Assembly: GCA_022641735.1 (NCBI GenBank)
Contig: JALCDQ010000008.1
Coordinates: 31,682 to 95,681 of the forward strand
Length of the DNA stretch: 64,000 nt
Origin: Prevotella sp.
Lineage (GTDB): Bacteria; Bacteroidota; Bacteroidia; Bacteroidales; Bacteroidaceae
Direction of reading: 5' to 3'
Below, piece by piece: positions 14,431 to 61,818 of the stretch. The position numbers and the translations under genes were made by a program. The stretch's first letter is position 1. Every line of letters starts with the position of its first letter. The notes under the pieces were generated by a model. That model searched no databases. It was not told the origin of the DNA and worked only from the letters and a program-made list of their open reading frames with translations.

Positions 14431-14589
14431 AATCGCGAATATATACTTATTTGGAGCGCAAATGTAAGCAAAACTTTTTTCTTACACCTTATTATAATAG
14501 GATTTTTTTATTTTTTTAAGCCTTTAGACCCTATTTTCCGTTTTTCCTCTTTTTGATTGATGGAAAAACGGGGCATTATCTTTGATTTT

Positions 14590-14674
14590 GTAAAAGGTTA
14601 TCTTTTACGATGTAAACAATCGTTGTTTACCTTGTAATTAACGACCTTTTACCCTGTAAACAACGGTTGTTTAC
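14590..14674. repeat. 22-bp-period dyad array B (4 clear units)
   Basis: Starts 14590/14612/14634/14656: GTAAAAGGTTATCTTTTAC, GTAAACAATCGTTGTTTAC, GTAATTAACGACCTTTTAC, GTAAACAACGGTTGTTTAC with 3-bp spacers. Confidence 0.92.
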
Positions 14675-14779
14675 AAAGCATGGAATGATGATTTCAAAAA
14701 TGGCTGATAATCAACGGCTTAGCAAACGACGTTTTTTGAGTCTGTCGGCCTTATCTTTCTTGGCAATGAAGAAGGGCGA

Positions 14780-22200: not shown

Positions 22201-22329
22201 GCAAAAGATTATCTTTTGGGGAATTAGGAACATTGCCTTGATTTGTAAACAATAGCCTTTTACCCTGTAAACAATGGCTTTTTACATTGTAAGTAACGAC
22301 CTTTTACAGGGTAAACAACTATCTTTTAC
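22201..22329. repeat. 22-bp-period dyad array C (6 periods, 4 strong units)
   Basis: 22201 GCAAAAGATTATCTTTTGG; 22245 GTAAACAATAGCCTTTTAC; 22267 GTAAACAATGGCTTTTTAC; 22289 GTAAGTAACGACCTTTTAC; 22311 GTAAACAACTATCTTTTAC. Confidence 0.9.
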
Positions 22330-22427
22330 AATTCCATTAATTATCTATCGAAAAACAGAGGATATTTCTTTGGTTTTTGAGAGGTCATCTCCTTTCGCAG
22401 CAAAAACCGAAAAATCTCCCCTTTTCC

Positions 22428-33239: not shown

Positions 33240-33282
33240 CCGGAAATCATTGTTTGAAATTCAATCAATGACACCTTACAAT

Positions 33283-33436
33283 CCTTTTAACCGTTAGAAG
33301 GCGAGTAAATCAGGCTGTTTTACTGAGTAAATCAGCCTGATTCATCGAGTAAAACAGCCTGATTTACTCAGCCCTTTACAGCAAAGGGTTGCGCAAGGGG
33401 TCATCTTTCAAAATAGGGAATATCGTTAATGGGATA
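33283..33436. repeat. 22-bp-period array D (7 periods), homologous to array G
   Basis: Core 33305 GTAAATCAGGCTGTTTTACTGA / 33327 GTAAATCAGCCTGATTCATCGA / 33349 GTAAAACAGCCTGATTTACTCA; flanking periods align in phase with array G. Confidence 0.85.
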
Positions 33437-44960: not shown

Positions 44961-44979
44961 TTTCCTATGGGATAGATTT

Positions 44980-45064
44980 GTAGAAGATGGCTTTTTACCC
45001 GGTAAACAATAGTCTTTTGGGCGGTAAGTAACGGTCTTTTACATGGTAAAAAGCCATCTTTTAC
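44980..45064. repeat. 22-bp-period dyad array E (4 units)
   Basis: 44980 GTAGAAGATGGCTTTTTAC, 45002 GTAAACAATAGTCTTTTGG, 45024 GTAAGTAACGGTCTTTTAC, 45046 GTAAAAAGCCATCTTTTAC. Confidence 0.92.
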
Positions 45065-45242
45065 TTTTCGAAGGTTGACTATCGGCAGAATGAGCCGACA
45101 AAGACTGATTTTCAGAGAAGTAGGGAGAGGCTTTTGAAATATTAAATATGGCATTGCCTGAAAATAAAGGCTAAGAGGAAAGTGAATACCATCGAATCAA
45201 TATGTTAAAAAAGCATCGAAGGTGAAAAAACTTTTTGGAAAG

Positions 45243-53470: not shown

Positions 53471-53496
53471 TCAGTAGATTCTTTATAATTAAATAG

Positions 53497-53536
53497 ATGA
53501 GGGTGTATCTTTCTTGATACACCCTCATTTTTTTTG
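53497..53536 (+). terminator. Intrinsic terminator of second SusC module
   Basis: Perfect 13-bp stem ATGAGGGTGTATC-tttctt-GATACACCCTCAT followed by TTTTTTT. Confidence 0.9.
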
Positions 53537-53573: not shown

Positions 53574-53837
53574 TTCACTTATGGCTTTCAGCCACGATGA
53601 TAACGGCTAATGAGGGGCACGATAATGGTTAATGGAGGTTACAAATGCCATTTGTAACCACATTACACACGGCTTGTAATGAGGTTACAAGTAGCTTGTA
53701 ACGTGATTACACACTACTTGTAATCAGGTCATAAGCCGTTTTTGTTGCCTTTATCAGCCGTTTTCATGCTTTCCGTCAGTCGTTTTTGAGGTTGTCATTG
53801 GTTGTTTTCGGATGTATGAAAAACCGTTATTGGGCAT
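53574..53837. repeat. 22-bp-period array F (~12 in-phase periods)
   Basis: 53638 GTTACAAATGcCATTTGTAAC; 53662 ATTACACACGGCTTGTAAT; 53684 GTTACAAGTAGCTTGTAAC; 53706 ATTACACACTACTTGTAAT. Then AGCCGTT/AGCCGTT/AGTCGTT/GGTTGTT/AACCGTT every 22 bp (53734, 53756, 53778, 53800, 53822). Confidence 0.82.
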
Positions 53838-53920: not shown

Positions 53921-53952
53921 TTTGCACTTTTAGAGGAAAAGTATTATCTTTG
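53921..53952 (+). promoter_or_regulatory. Promoter of GH29 gene
   Basis: TTTG 53921-53924, N20, TATCTTTG 53945-53952. Confidence 0.7.
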
Positions 53953-53972: not shown

Positions 53973-55271
53973 ATGAAAAAGATTATATTGTTTTTAGTAT
54001 CGTTGTTGGCTTGCGTGAATGGATTTGCGCAGTATCAGCCTAGTAAGGAAGTGTTGGAATCCCGCAAGGAATTTCAGGATAACAAGTTCGGCATTTTCAT
54101 CCATTGGGGCATCTATTCGATGCTTGGAGATGGAGAATGGGTGCAGCAAGTCAAGAACTTAAACTATAAGGAATACGCTCATTTAGCCGATGGTTTCTAT
54201 CCTTCCAAGTTCAATGCAGATGAGTGGGTGAAGGCATTTAAGGATGCTGGAGCAAAGTATATCACCATTACGAGCCGCCATCATGATGGTTTCTCGATGT
54301 TCAAAACGGCCACTTCTGATTATAATATTGTGGACGGTACGCCTTTCCACCGCGATGTTTTGAAGGAATTGGCTGCCGCTTGCAAGAAATATGGCATCAA
54401 GCTCAACGTCTATTATTCACATCTTGATTGGCATCGTTCGGATTATCCTTTGGGGTCAACGGGCCTTAATCTTGGGCGTCCTACTGACCAACAGGACTTC
54501 AATAGCTATTTTAATTTCATGAGTCAGCAGCTTACCGAGCTCCTTACCAATTATGGACCTGTTGGTGCAATATGGTTTGATGGCTGGTGGGACCATAAAG
54601 CAGATAAGGATTTCAATTGGCGTTTGGATGAGCAATATGCCTTAATTCATAAGCTCCAGCCTGCTTGTATGATAGGCAACAATCATCATCTCGCTCCTAA
54701 ACCGGGTGAGGATATTCAGATGTTTGAGCAAGACCTCCCTGGCCAGAATAGTGCCGGTTTCTCCGGTAAGAGTGTTATCGGGCAGTTGCCATTAGAGACT
54801 TGCCTGACGATGAACAAGAGTTGGGGCTATAACATCACCGATAAGAACTATAAGAGTGTCGATTATCTTATTCAGAAACTGGTGTCGGCAGCGGGTCGCA
54901 ATGCCAACTTGTTGCTGAATATAGGTCCTCGTCCGGATGGCCAACTGCCAGCAGAAGCCATGGAACGCCTTAAAGGTATGGGTGAATGGATGAGCAAGAA
55001 TGGAGCGACAATTTATGGGACTCGTGGCGGCATCGTGGCTCCTCACGACTGGGGAGTGAGCACACAGAAGGGCAATACCTTATATATACATATCCTTGAG
55101 TGGAAAGATAAGGGGCTGTTCCTCCCTATCACTGACCAAAAAGTGATAGCTGCCAAGATGTTTGCAGATAACAGCAAGGTGGGCATTGTCAAGACTAAGG
55201 GCGGCGTTTTGCTGGAATTGCCTTATGCGCCAAAGGGCGTTGACACCATTGTTGAACTCACTTTGAAGTAA
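53973..55271 (+). CDS. GH29 alpha-L-fucosidase
   Basis: KFGIFIHWGIYSMLG, TSRHHDGFSMFKTATSDYNIVDGTPFHRD, GAIWFDGWWD. Confidence 0.92.
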   Translation: MKKIILFLVSLLACVNGFAQYQPSKEVLESRKEFQDNKFGIFIHWGIYSMLGDGEWVQQVKNLNYKEYAHLADGFYPSKFNADEWVKAFKDAGAKYITITSRHHDGFSMFKTATSDYNIVDGTPFHRDVLKELAAACKKYGIKLNVYYSHLDWHRSDYPLGSTGLNLGRPTDQQDFNSYFNFMSQQLTELLTNYGPVGAIWFDGWWDHKADKDFNWRLDEQYALIHKLQPACMIGNNHHLAPKPGEDIQMFEQDLPGQNSAGFSGKSVIGQLPLETCLTMNKSWGYNITDKNYKSVDYLIQKLVSAAGRNANLLLNIGPRPDGQLPAEAMERLKGMGEWMSKNGATIYGTRGGIVAPHDWGVSTQKGNTLYIHILEWKDKGLFLPITDQKVIAAKMFADNSKVGIVKTKGGVLLELPYAPKGVDTIVELTLK

Positions 55272-58170: not shown

Positions 58171-58197
58171 GGAAGGCGGACGATAATCACTTGCAAT

Positions 58198-58351
58198 GTA
58201 AGTAACGGTTGTTTAGGTTGTAAATCAGGCTGTTTTACTGAGTAAATCAGCCTGATTCATCGAGTAAAACAGCCTGATTTACTCAGCCCTTTACAGCAGG
58301 TCGTTTCCGAAAGGAATATCTTTCAGTTTGCAAAAGACCGTTGAATGGAAT
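58198..58351. repeat. 22-bp-period array G (7 periods)
   Basis: 58198 GTAAGTAACGGTTGTTTAGGTT, then 58220-58298 identical to 33305-33383, then 58308 CGAAAGGAATATCTTTCAGTTT, 58330 GCAAAAGACCGTTGAATGGAAT. Confidence 0.87.
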
Positions 58352-58407: not shown

Positions 58408-61400
58408 TTAGATGTCCTTTACCTTACCTGTTCGTTTGAGGATTCCCCATGTTTGCAACTCGCCTTTGATGGCTTTCTTGTAACTCTTGAAGAGCACTAC
58501 ATACATAATCCAACGATAACAGAGGCGCTGAGGGATAATCCATAGCAACACCCATAGTCGTTCATGCTCATGCAGATAGGCCATGATGGAAACGCTCGCA
58601 TCCACTAACAGGAAGATGAAATAATAGAGCAATACCTTGCCGGCACTGCCAGAGAAGAGGCCCACAAGCATCAGCAAGTCGGCAATCGGCGAGAATGTCG
58701 GGATGATAAACTGAAATACCAGCATATTCGGAAGCGCCCATAGGCCGAGCCCTTTATACTTCGGGGCCAGCATAGCGCCACGATGCTTCCAGAAAGTCTG
58801 CATTACTCCGAAGCACCAACGCGTTCTTTGCTTGATAAACTGCTTCAGTTTCTCGGGCGCTTCAGTCATTGCTACAGCGCGATTCTCATTCTCTATCACG
58901 TATCCTGTCTTCAAAATACGGATGGTAAGGTCACAATCTTCGGCTAAAGTATCCGTTGTCAGTCCGCCTGCTGCATTGATAGCGCTCTTGCGGAAAGCAC
59001 CGATAGCACCCGGAACCACCGTTATGGCGTTGATGGCAGAATAGGCCAAGCGGTCGAAATTCTGGCTGGTTGTGTATTCAATAGCCTGCCAACGGGTGAG
59101 CATATTGCATTGGTTGCCCACCTTGACGTTGCCTGCCACGGCACCCACTTTCCCTTCTTTATCGGCAAAGAAGTGGCGCATCATGATGGAGATAGCGTTT
59201 GGATAGAGCTTCGTATCTGCGTCTATGCACACCACATATTCGGCCTCCGTATGGGCAATTCCATAGTTGAGAGCAGACGCTTTGCCGCCATTTGGTTTGG
59301 TAAGCAACAGCATTCGCGGATGACCTGTAAAGGCTTCACTCACCCGTTGATAAGTCTCGTCCTTGCTGCCATCATCCACGAAGACGATATTGAAGTTCGG
59401 ATAATCCTGCTTGAGCAGATTATTGAGGGAACTCACTGCATTCACCTCTTCATTATAAGCAGGCACAATGATGGACACCAGAGGAGCATCTGCCGGGATA
59501 GCCTCCGTCAGCAAGATGGTGTGGCGTCGTTCCCGAATGGTAAGGATGAGCATGAAGAGCAGACGTCCAAGTCCTATAATGAGGAACAGAATGAAAAGAG
59601 CAGCGATGAAATTGCCCACGTTATAGATGGCTTCCGCTAAGGTCAAGTTGGCCTGCATGGCATAGTATTCCTTGCCTTTAGGGATTGGCGGCATCAGCTG
59701 TTGCGGTGATTTACCCAAATATTGAGGAAGGGTAATGAACTTATATCCTTTCTTTTGCAGATATTCTATGATGCGTGGAAGAGCCTTGATGGTCTCTTTA
59801 CGGGTGTCGCCACCGGCATCATGGAGCAGAATAATATGCCCGTTGCCTTGCTCAACGCCTTTGATGACACGGTTGTAAATCTGTTCGGCAGTGATTCCGG
59901 GCTCCCAATCTTCAGGGTCAATAGACTCTCCTACATCCAGATAATTTTGCTTTCGAGCCTCCACAATTGGGATGAGTTCATCCGTTCCAGATGGGTCACT
60001 GTCGGCATTATAGGGTGCTCGGAAGAGAATGGTGCTGTTGCCAGTGATGCTCTCGATAAGCAATCGGGTGAGGCGAAGCTCCATAAAGGTGCGCTCAGGG
60101 GAGTTTGTGGCCACGTTGCGATGGGTAAAGGTGTGGTTCCCAATGATGTTTCCATCCTCATAAACCTGCTTTACAACCGGCAGATTCTTCTCTATTTGCA
60201 GGCCTACCATGAAGAATGCGGCATGCACATTATGCTTTTTGAGTATGTTCAGAATCTTAGGAGTCCACCTGCTATCAGGTCCGTCATCGAAGGTGAGCAG
60301 CAGTTCTTTCGAATGGGCACGTCCAAACTTCTGCAACTCATAGGCTGTCGGAATCTTCGTATAGTCTTCATCAGCGATGAGAATATCGTTGTTGTCCATC
60401 TCGATGTTGGCACTTCCGGCATGTGGAGTATCGATTACGTCGAGCACTTCACCATTGCCGATATAGTTGGCAGTCATGCTTCCCTTGAGCTCTTCAAGAT
60501 CACCGATGCGGAAGTGGGCGGCTGCGCTGTGGGTCATATCTCGGCTATAGAACCGCCAAAGACGGTTATCCTCACTGCCGAGACGCCATACGCTGAAGCC
60601 TGCCAGCCCATATTCACAGCCAAAACGTATGGTGTTGAAGTTGGTGGCAGCATCATTGAAGAACACCTGATGCCCTATGTTGTCATCGTCAGTATAAGCA
60701 AAGCTCAGGCCATAAGTGTCCTCATCGAAGGTAATCTTTGATTCCGCGTCGGCAGCCAACGAAAGGGCATCATGATAAGAGACGCTCTGATTGTTGTCGC
60801 CATTGGGTGTCCAGTCGTAACCATAGGCTCCCAAACAGAGCACAATCTTCTCTTGAGGCACTTTGGCGGCAAGGTTATCCACGGTTTTCTCTATCCATTG
60901 CTGGGAAGAAACATCACCAGGGTCGCTCAGGGTGTTATGCTCATCATAGGCCATCAAGAAGAGATAATCGTCGTATTTGGCAAGTTCTTTGACGTCATAG
61001 TCCTCATTGAAGGGTGAAACATCTTGTGTTACATAGAGTCCGTGAGCGTGGAAAGCCTCCGACATCTCTTTCACAAAGGCAGTAAAATAATCGTTATTGT
61101 TATCCGTGAGTTCCTCAATATCGATGTTGATACCCACGAATTTATGCTTCAGACATTGTTTGAGCACGCTGTCGACAAGGTTGGCGCGCAGTTTCTTATT
61201 ATGCAGAATCCGCTCGATGCCTTGCGCTTTGAAGTCGCCATTGTAAGCGTTGCTGAGCATCGGCATTACCGGCAGACCGGTCTTCTTCATCAAGGTGTAG
61301 GCCTTCGGGTCGATGCGCACCTCCATCTTCAGGGTTTTCGGATTGATGAAAAACCATTCCGGAACGACCAGATTGAGGGCTTTGATGTTCTGTTTGAGGG

Positions 61401-61818
61401 ATATATAGGACTGAGGGTCCCATGTTACGTAGTATGCCGCACGGATTCCGGCGGTCTTGGCGCTCCAATCAGCGATGTAACGAGCCGTTATCTTGTCGGC
61501 TTTTCCCGTAAATCGCTTCATCTTTCCGTTCTTCACCGACTTCCATTTTGCATAGTTGTTATGTGCCTTTTTCTCATGGAAGAAGTAGCGGAAATCCTTA
61601 TATTCCCGCGAAAACTTGTTCTGTTTGAGATAGGGTTTGTTGGCCATGACAGCACTGCGGAAGTCTTCTCGGAACGGAAAACTTGGCGCCTTGTCGATGA
61701 GGAGCATGGTAACGAATACCGCAACAAACAATGCGACAATGAAAAGGACTATCCTGAAAGTCCATTTAAACTTGTTCCAACGAGAGGTGGAATCGGTTTG
61801 GAATACTTGTTTATCCAT
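58408..61818 (-). CDS. Multidomain inner-membrane protein: GH18-like + NodB polysaccharide deacetylase + GT2 glycosyltransferase
   Basis: GH18-like FVGINIDIEELTD; NodB LLTFDDGPDSRWTPKIL...GNHTFTH; GT2 IIVPAYNEEVNAVSSLNNLLKQDYPNFNIVFVDDGS, TLAEDCDLTIRIL, QRTRW. Start trimmed to ATG 61818 (ORF to 61890). Confidence 0.9.
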   Translation of the reverse strand: MDKQVFQTDSTSRWNKFKWTFRIVLFIVALFVAVFVTMLLIDKAPSFPFREDFRSAVMANKPYLKQNKFSREYKDFRYFFHEKKAHNNYAKWKSVKNGKMKRFTGKADKITARYIADWSAKTAGIRAAYYVTWDPQSYISLKQNIKALNLVVPEWFFINPKTLKMEVRIDPKAYTLMKKTGLPVMPMLSNAYNGDFKAQGIERILHNKKLRANLVDSVLKQCLKHKFVGINIDIEELTDNNNDYFTAFVKEMSEAFHAHGLYVTQDVSPFNEDYDVKELAKYDDYLFLMAYDEHNTLSDPGDVSSQQWIEKTVDNLAAKVPQEKIVLCLGAYGYDWTPNGDNNQSVSYHDALSLAADAESKITFDEDTYGLSFAYTDDDNIGHQVFFNDAATNFNTIRFGCEYGLAGFSVWRLGSEDNRLWRFYSRDMTHSAAAHFRIGDLEELKGSMTANYIGNGEVLDVIDTPHAGSANIEMDNNDILIADEDYTKIPTAYELQKFGRAHSKELLLTFDDGPDSRWTPKILNILKKHNVHAAFFMVGLQIEKNLPVVKQVYEDGNIIGNHTFTHRNVATNSPERTFMELRLTRLLIESITGNSTILFRAPYNADSDPSGTDELIPIVEARKQNYLDVGESIDPEDWEPGITAEQIYNRVIKGVEQGNGHIILLHDAGGDTRKETIKALPRIIEYLQKKGYKFITLPQYLGKSPQQLMPPIPKGKEYYAMQANLTLAEAIYNVGNFIAALFILFLIIGLGRLLFMLILTIRERRHTILLTEAIPADAPLVSIIVPAYNEEVNAVSSLNNLLKQDYPNFNIVFVDDGSKDETYQRVSEAFTGHPRMLLLTKPNGGKASALNYGIAHTEAEYVVCIDADTKLYPNAISIMMRHFFADKEGKVGAVAGNVKVGNQCNMLTRWQAIEYTTSQNFDRLAYSAINAITVVPGAIGAFRKSAINAAGGLTTDTLAEDCDLTIRILKTGYVIENENRAVAMTEAPEKLKQFIKQRTRWCFGVMQTFWKHRGAMLAPKYKGLGLWALPNMLVFQFIIPTFSPIADLLMLVGLFSGSAGKVLLYYFIFLLVDASVSIMAYLHEHERLWVLLWIIPQRLCYRWIMYVVLFKSYKKAIKGELQTWGILKRTGKVKDI

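Follow-up and report, generated by a model that had tools for sequence, protein, structure and literature searches.

A mirror-symmetric array with a 22-bp phase in Prevotella is one of a chromosome-wide population of evenly spaced arrays that may serve as DNA-level docking sites

Array F occupies positions 53574-53837 of the window, the 64,000-nucleotide stretch of Prevotella sp. DNA analysed here, which comes from a draft genome (81.5% complete). Upstream of it lies the intrinsic terminator of the preceding gene (53495-53530, plus strand), a 15-pair stem with a T run that is separate from the array. About 85 bp downstream of it, and outside it, the sequence contains the boxes TTTG ... TATCTTTG (53921-53952, plus strand), which resemble the Bacteroidota-type promoter consensus and are taken to be the promoter of the neighbouring GH29 alpha-L-fucosidase gene (53973-55271, plus strand; PF01120, E 1e-106).

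The initial annotation read array F as a run of 22-bp periods drifting from palindromic to non-palindromic units. The period is borne out, with 12 rows and zero phase shift over 53574-53837 and a lag-22 identity of 0.496 versus 0.261 in shuffled sequence (z = 8.2, p <= 5e-4, 2000 dinucleotide-preserving shuffles), so that in the autocorrelation test on which the claim was to stand or fall the real signal lies above the shuffled controls; lags 44 and 66 give the next-highest identities. The motifs listed for the array are found at their places (AGCCGTTTTT at 53734, AGCCGTTTTC at 53756, AGTCGTTTTT at 53778, GGTTGTTTTC at 53800 and AACCGTTATT at 53822), as is the perfect 10+1+10 palindrome GTTACAAATGCCATTTGTAAC at 53638-53658, and the supposedly non-palindromic half (53730-53837) keeps the period by itself (lag-22 z 5.2). 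The drift does not hold up: array F instead consists of ordered, oriented leader and trailer units arranged in mirror symmetry about position 53682, and the "drift" half is the outer, oriented part of this symmetric element. The leader (53574-53637, plus strand, rows 0-2) comprises three 22-bp units of the AANGGCTAATG type directed toward the core, with the row consensus GATnATAACGGCTnATGAG / GACAAAAGCnACTAATGGAGAT over 23 in-phase copies. The core (53638-53727) comprises four palindromic units, with dyads at 53648, 53671 and 53693, and is the most conserved part (31-36 bits for each 22-bp row over 23 copies); its first unit is a 21-bp palindrome, and each of the other three is 19 bp long with a 3-bp spacer. 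The trailer (53728-53837, plus strand) is built of in-phase GTCATTAGCCGTTTTT-type units that are the reverse complement of the leader, and 53682 is the best mirror centre for the outer parts, with harmonics at +-11 bp.

This element of about 264 bp is present in at least 24 copies in the genome, which gives array F at least 23 paralogues. A BLAST search with array F finds about two dozen further sites in the genome it comes from (best E 5e-31); in the relatives searched there is no comparable match, and one weak match occurs in G012. The copies share an in-phase design of three to four AAAACGGCTAATGA-type leader units, four palindromic core units (e.g., TACAAATGCGGTTTGTAACCAC, GTTACACACGGCTTGTAATGTG, ATTACACACTACTTGTAACGTG and ATTACAAGCCGTGTGTAATCTC) and three to four trailer units in which the leader recurs as its reverse complement. 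Successive 22-bp rows carry 3.5, 6, 12, 16, 20, 32, 36, 32, 32, 18, 18, 15, 10 and 6 bits, a conservation that is maximal at the centre and falls off symmetrically outward, and the copies have no sharp termini, the information declining gradually toward the ends. Sixteen of the 24 copies lie between convergent genes (p 3e-7), and the paralogues of array F adjoin unrelated genes, mostly at their 3' ends.

Five other arrays in the window were tested, and each has the 22-bp period. Three belong to class A (GTAAACAA..TTGTTTAC), at 14568-14714 upstream of a topoisomerase I gene, at 22208-22370, and at 44971-45087 upstream of a gene for a TonB-dependent receptor; two belong to class B (GTAAATCAGCCTGATTTAC), at 33276-33396 and 58178-58309, both between convergent genes. 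An identical 79-bp block, shared mutations included, is found at 33305-33383 and 58220-58298 in the two class B arrays, which are 25 kb apart and have different flanks; it is a product of recent copying or gene conversion. The window also encodes (58408-61818, minus strand) a single protein in which a GH18 domain, a polysaccharide deacetylase domain and a family 2 glycosyltransferase domain are combined. As for the topoisomerase I gene, an array of other sequence is present upstream of topA in some relatives (e.g., G012, G029 and G077) and absent from others; most close relatives have no array just upstream of it.

The arrays are spread genome-wide. Over 826 kb of this genome, an unbiased scan that required at least 38 identities at a given lag over 66 compared positions returned 77 arrays at lag 22 versus 0-5 at lags 19-21 and 23-26. 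All but two of them (75/77) are intergenic or situated in a contig end region, and one falls inside a gene according to our gene calls, which also underlie the null models below and come from a custom hexamer ORF caller, an approximation. The array motif has 444 matches in the whole genome versus none for the reversed pattern. Class A half-sites, located by sequence alone, are 22, 44 and 66 bp apart in 50, 38 and 22 cases, respectively, with at most one case at every other distance; class F has additional half-site distances of 24, 46 and 68 bp because its first unit is 21 bp long. At least six unit classes of unrelated sequence, each with the 22-bp period, are present: A and B as above, D (GTAAAACAAGTTGTTTTG), E (CAAAATAGACTGAATTG), F (GTTACAC..CTTGTAAC) and P (TGTCCGAACGGTCCGGACA). 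These classes are motif-based because k-mer clustering merged all arrays through mosaic arrays, and most arrays are only loosely similar to one another. A repeat of about 430 bp with an array inside occurs in four copies that are 86-89% identical (G000 C1:104775, C1:199860, C2:30182 and C2:124709) and is possibly a mobile composite element; within it, a class A array stands beside a second 22-bp array of the CGTTTGGCCAAACG type. Convergent gene pairs flank 32 of the 75 classified intergenic arrays of this genome (p = 1e-9), and divergent pairs flank few. The convergent bias is absent in the complete relative G016, and position relative to genes is therefore not the common feature of the arrays.

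The period extends beyond this genome. Named matches to the arrays are almost all from Prevotellaceae, including Hallella multisaccharivorax, Prevotella sp. tf2-5 and Xylanibacter rodentium, and other species carry differing units with the identical 22-bp period (e.g., GTAAAAGGTCATCTTTTACTCG, GTAACTTGACGCTAATTACACT and GTAAAAGAGCCGCTTTTACCGT). In 400 kb of G016, 38 arrays are found at lag 22 versus 0-2 at other lags, the double period excepted. With the double period of 44 likewise set aside, genomes of the genus without GTAA matches have 8 arrays at lag 22 versus 0-5 at other lags, and two samples not selected for GTAA, the topA and the tnaA loci, have 8 versus 0-4 and 9 versus 0-3, respectively; these samples include very different units such as GGCAGCGGCCGCTGCCAATGAT, and 9 of 20 tnaA loci of the genus bear a 22-bp array. 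The other families of the order, of which 231 kb were sampled, give no clear excess, with two arrays at lag 22 and as many at lag 23. Tandem arrays of palindromic 22-bp units occur outside Prevotella at single loci in Aerococcaceae (L201), Bacteroidales AwDysgo (L181) and Candidatus Bacteroides intestinipullorum (L149). A search of plasmid and phage collections gave zero matches. The reversed control pattern (CATT-N11-AATG-N3) has matches in G030, G109, G144, G034 and G172, so it is not a neutral control at the scale of the genus, and these genomes may contain arrays with yet another core. Positional conservation of arrays between species could not be demonstrated with the 13 and 21 usable orthologues, which give low power. 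The suggestion that the spacing of the units rather than their exact sequence is conserved is strongly supported by the six classes of this genome together with the other units across the genus.

A second regularity concerns the distances between arrays. Arrays are on average 10.4 and 10.8 kb apart on two contigs of this genome, and 11.1 kb apart in G016, i.e., about one array per 10 kb, and the distance to the nearest neighbouring array peaks at 4-8 kb. Close neighbours are rare: two pairs less than 3 kb apart were observed versus 12-24 expected (p = 5e-4). The comparison was made at three detection thresholds and against three nulls, which drew on random gaps of matching orientation type, on the longer gaps alone, or on gaps matched for residual length. 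On the other contigs of this genome, where only pattern and BLAST positions were used, there are no pairs below 4 kb, where a uniform null predicts 6.6 (p = 8e-4). Around 99 array loci from about 30 species, second arrays occur at 0.11 per 10 kb within 0-4 kb versus 0.43 at 4-8 kb (p = 0.013), which is the same trend, and the spacing rule holds in two species. Operon structure was considered as the cause and rejected, since the orientation-matched and residual-length-matched nulls fail to reproduce the exclusion and array-free gaps are near-random, with no comparable order. The exclusion operates between sequence classes (4 pairs versus 18 expected) as well as within them (1 versus 9.9); because unrelated classes exclude each other too, deletion or recombination driven by homology is ruled out as its source.

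The copies were also compared for pairing. Compensatory base pairing among them is absent, pairing within copies not exceeding that between copies. The arms of one copy match each other less than do arms from different copies (z -1.6 to -4.1 at six of nine symmetries), the arm-matching z being significantly positive at none of the nine, and spacer bases in two species avoid completing the palindrome (0.15 versus 0.33 and 0.16 versus 0.33 expected). Positive covariation seen on pooling species or subfamilies was rejected as a mixture effect. Taken as a single sequence, array F folds as RNA better than its shuffles (z -5.9), and real copies fold equally to chimeras of different copies, with no gain. 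Despite the strong single-sequence fold, we reject RNA or cruciform structure as the selected trait, which the lack of compensatory pairing, the anti-covariation and the folding of the chimeras make unlikely. We conclude that it is in double-stranded DNA that the half-sites are recognised, one dimer for every 22 bp being the simplest reader.

We propose, tentatively and somewhat short of an even chance, that array F is one site in a chromosome-wide system of DNA-level docking sites; the data suggest a signal that organises the chromosome, not one that switches the adjacent gene. A 22-bp unit spans two helical turns and has two inverted half-sites; it would most simply take one protein dimer, and stacking in exact phase would align the bound dimers on one face of the DNA, allowing oligomerisation or wrapping. 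Binding would nucleate at the conserved centre and spread into the weaker leader and trailer units, a course that the exact phase with free linkers and the fall-off from the centre fit. Intergenic sites that come no closer than about 4 kb, with 4-8 kb as the common distance, irrespective of unit sequence would anchor chromosome domains or form their boundaries, and the ligand would likely be a nucleoid protein or DNA gyrase. The 400-500 supercoil domains of E. coli imply domains of about 10 kb, near the mean spacing of the arrays (PMC3820752); from this match and the even spacing, together with the phase, we infer a role in chromosome organisation, and regular spacing along the chromosome, a trait of nucleoid or domain-boundary sites, is found in the arrays. 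Several points count against the docking proposal: the differing unit sequences would call for binding proteins that differ or diverge; the GC content follows the helix at lag 11 only moderately, and weakly in some classes; an array just upstream of topA is missing from most close relatives; and some arrays have clearly been copied, as would also be expected of a selfish element. The HU-HIG histone-like family, expanded in several Prevotella genomes, with 7 members in this genome and up to 30 in G003 versus 1-4 in the other families of the order, is a candidate ligand family. In a bolder form, which we regard as rather doubtful, the arrays would be a ladder of several hundred functionally equivalent marks, defined by the 22-bp phase and not by sequence, with selection or an active placement mechanism keeping them no closer than about 4 kb. 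A family of DNA-binding proteins in rapid divergence would read these marks, which would make them a bacterial counterpart of boundary elements.

The main rival holds that the arrays are selfish dispersed palindromic repeats, REP/REPIN- or MITE-like, whose even spacing results from target immunity or purging. Hundreds of intergenic copies, and a bias in this genome toward convergent gaps with avoidance of divergent ones, as for insertions that spare promoters, agree with such an origin, and the 79-bp block shared between different flanks and the array-containing 430-bp repeat at four places show copying that makes a selfish component real and the rival serious. Against it, the ends of the F element are its least conserved part and lack sharp termini, no Y1 transposase/RAYT was found in this genome (81.5% complete), a single immunity rule would have to operate across six unrelated classes, and such elements are not known to keep one period of 22 bp across unrelated sequences. 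On balance we consider this explanation unlikely, though by no means negligible.

In a specific version of the docking proposal, to which we give a low probability, the arrays would be strong wrapping sites for DNA gyrase or another topoisomerase that manage supercoils between transcription units. The symmetric design of about 264 bp with its helical rhythm, the regular spacing and the mostly convergent setting of class F would suit such sites; the missing convergent bias in G016 would not, and the sequence-specific half-sites exceed the known needs of gyrase.

It is very improbable that the arrays act at the RNA level, as hairpins that serve as bidirectional terminators, as mRNA 3' stabilisers or as structured RNA: the favourable fold of array F and the position of many arrays downstream of genes are set against arms under-matched within copies, chimeras that fold as well as real copies, a canonical terminator already present upstream of array F, an Rfam search in which the array matches no family, and an exact 22-bp phase for which RNA hairpins have no need. 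Least probable of all is that array F is a local operator for the GH29 gene or for the cluster to which that gene belongs, as its place between the terminator and the GH29 promoter boxes might suggest and as the initial annotation hinted, since its paralogues flank unrelated genes, mostly at 3' ends or in convergent gaps, the promoter boxes lie about 85 bp downstream of it and the exclusion rule covers all sequence classes; a special role of array F for this gene is not supported.

If the spacing is functional, the docking sites would constitute a genome-wide map of chromosome domains encoded in cis in an abundant gut and rumen genus, in contrast to the usual consideration of bacterial supercoil domain borders as lacking a sequence signal. 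If the arrays are instead a mobile element with distance immunity, they would be an unusual selfish repeat that tiles the chromosome evenly and keeps its geometry while its sequence changes. On either reading, the pattern is easily tested in any cultivable Prevotella.

Among known systems, the iteron arrays of plasmid replication origins present protein sites about every two helical turns, as the Prevotella arrays do; the latter differ in their hundreds of chromosomal sites, inverted half-sites and many unit sequences. REP/BIME elements resemble them as short palindromes with hundreds of intergenic copies, occurrence in arrays, and proposed roles in supercoiling and DNA binding, and are accompanied in many genomes by RAYT transposases (PMC3733652, PMC3116915). 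The REP/REPIN trait of many short extragenic palindromes is seen here, in the motif count and the intergenic location alike, and the gyrase version recalls the BIME-2 arrays of E. coli; unlike REP/BIME, the Prevotella arrays have an exact 22-bp period, at least six unrelated units, a mirror-symmetric 12-unit design and even spacing. PF01797 (Y1/RAYT) has no match in this genome, with its 81.5% completeness, and is present in some array-bearing relatives (e.g., G010 and G016). The four 430-bp repeats may be dispersed near-identical copies in the manner of MITEs, most arrays being only loosely similar, and the sharp terminal inverted repeats of MITEs are lacking in the F copies. The BrickBuilt MITE with its 23-nt minisatellite, and the tandem repeats of 22, 23 and 41 nt of Porphyromonas gingivalis, are similar in the length of their tandem units and in occupying intergenic DNA of a related bacterium; they differ in their 19 copies and in having direct repeats between a leader and a tail with terminal inverted repeats, and neither a palindromic 22-bp phase nor even spacing is reported for them (PMC4596501). 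The 188-bp intergenic repeat PINSR of Prevotella intermedia/nigrescens (177-184 copies per genome, function unassigned) is likewise from Prevotella and without terminal inverted repeats, and its length is about 8.5 x 22 bp; it differs, as compared by description only, in that no 22-bp period, palindromic units or spacing rule are reported (PMC4755523). PINSR has been seen downstream of tnaA, and it may be of the same kind as the 22-bp arrays, described without its period. For Prevotella, the open-licence papers found describe neither the 22-bp phase nor the spacing rule. Pending a ligand or function, the 22-bp array system is, on its sequence features, provisionally grouped with the dispersed palindromic repeats as a variant.
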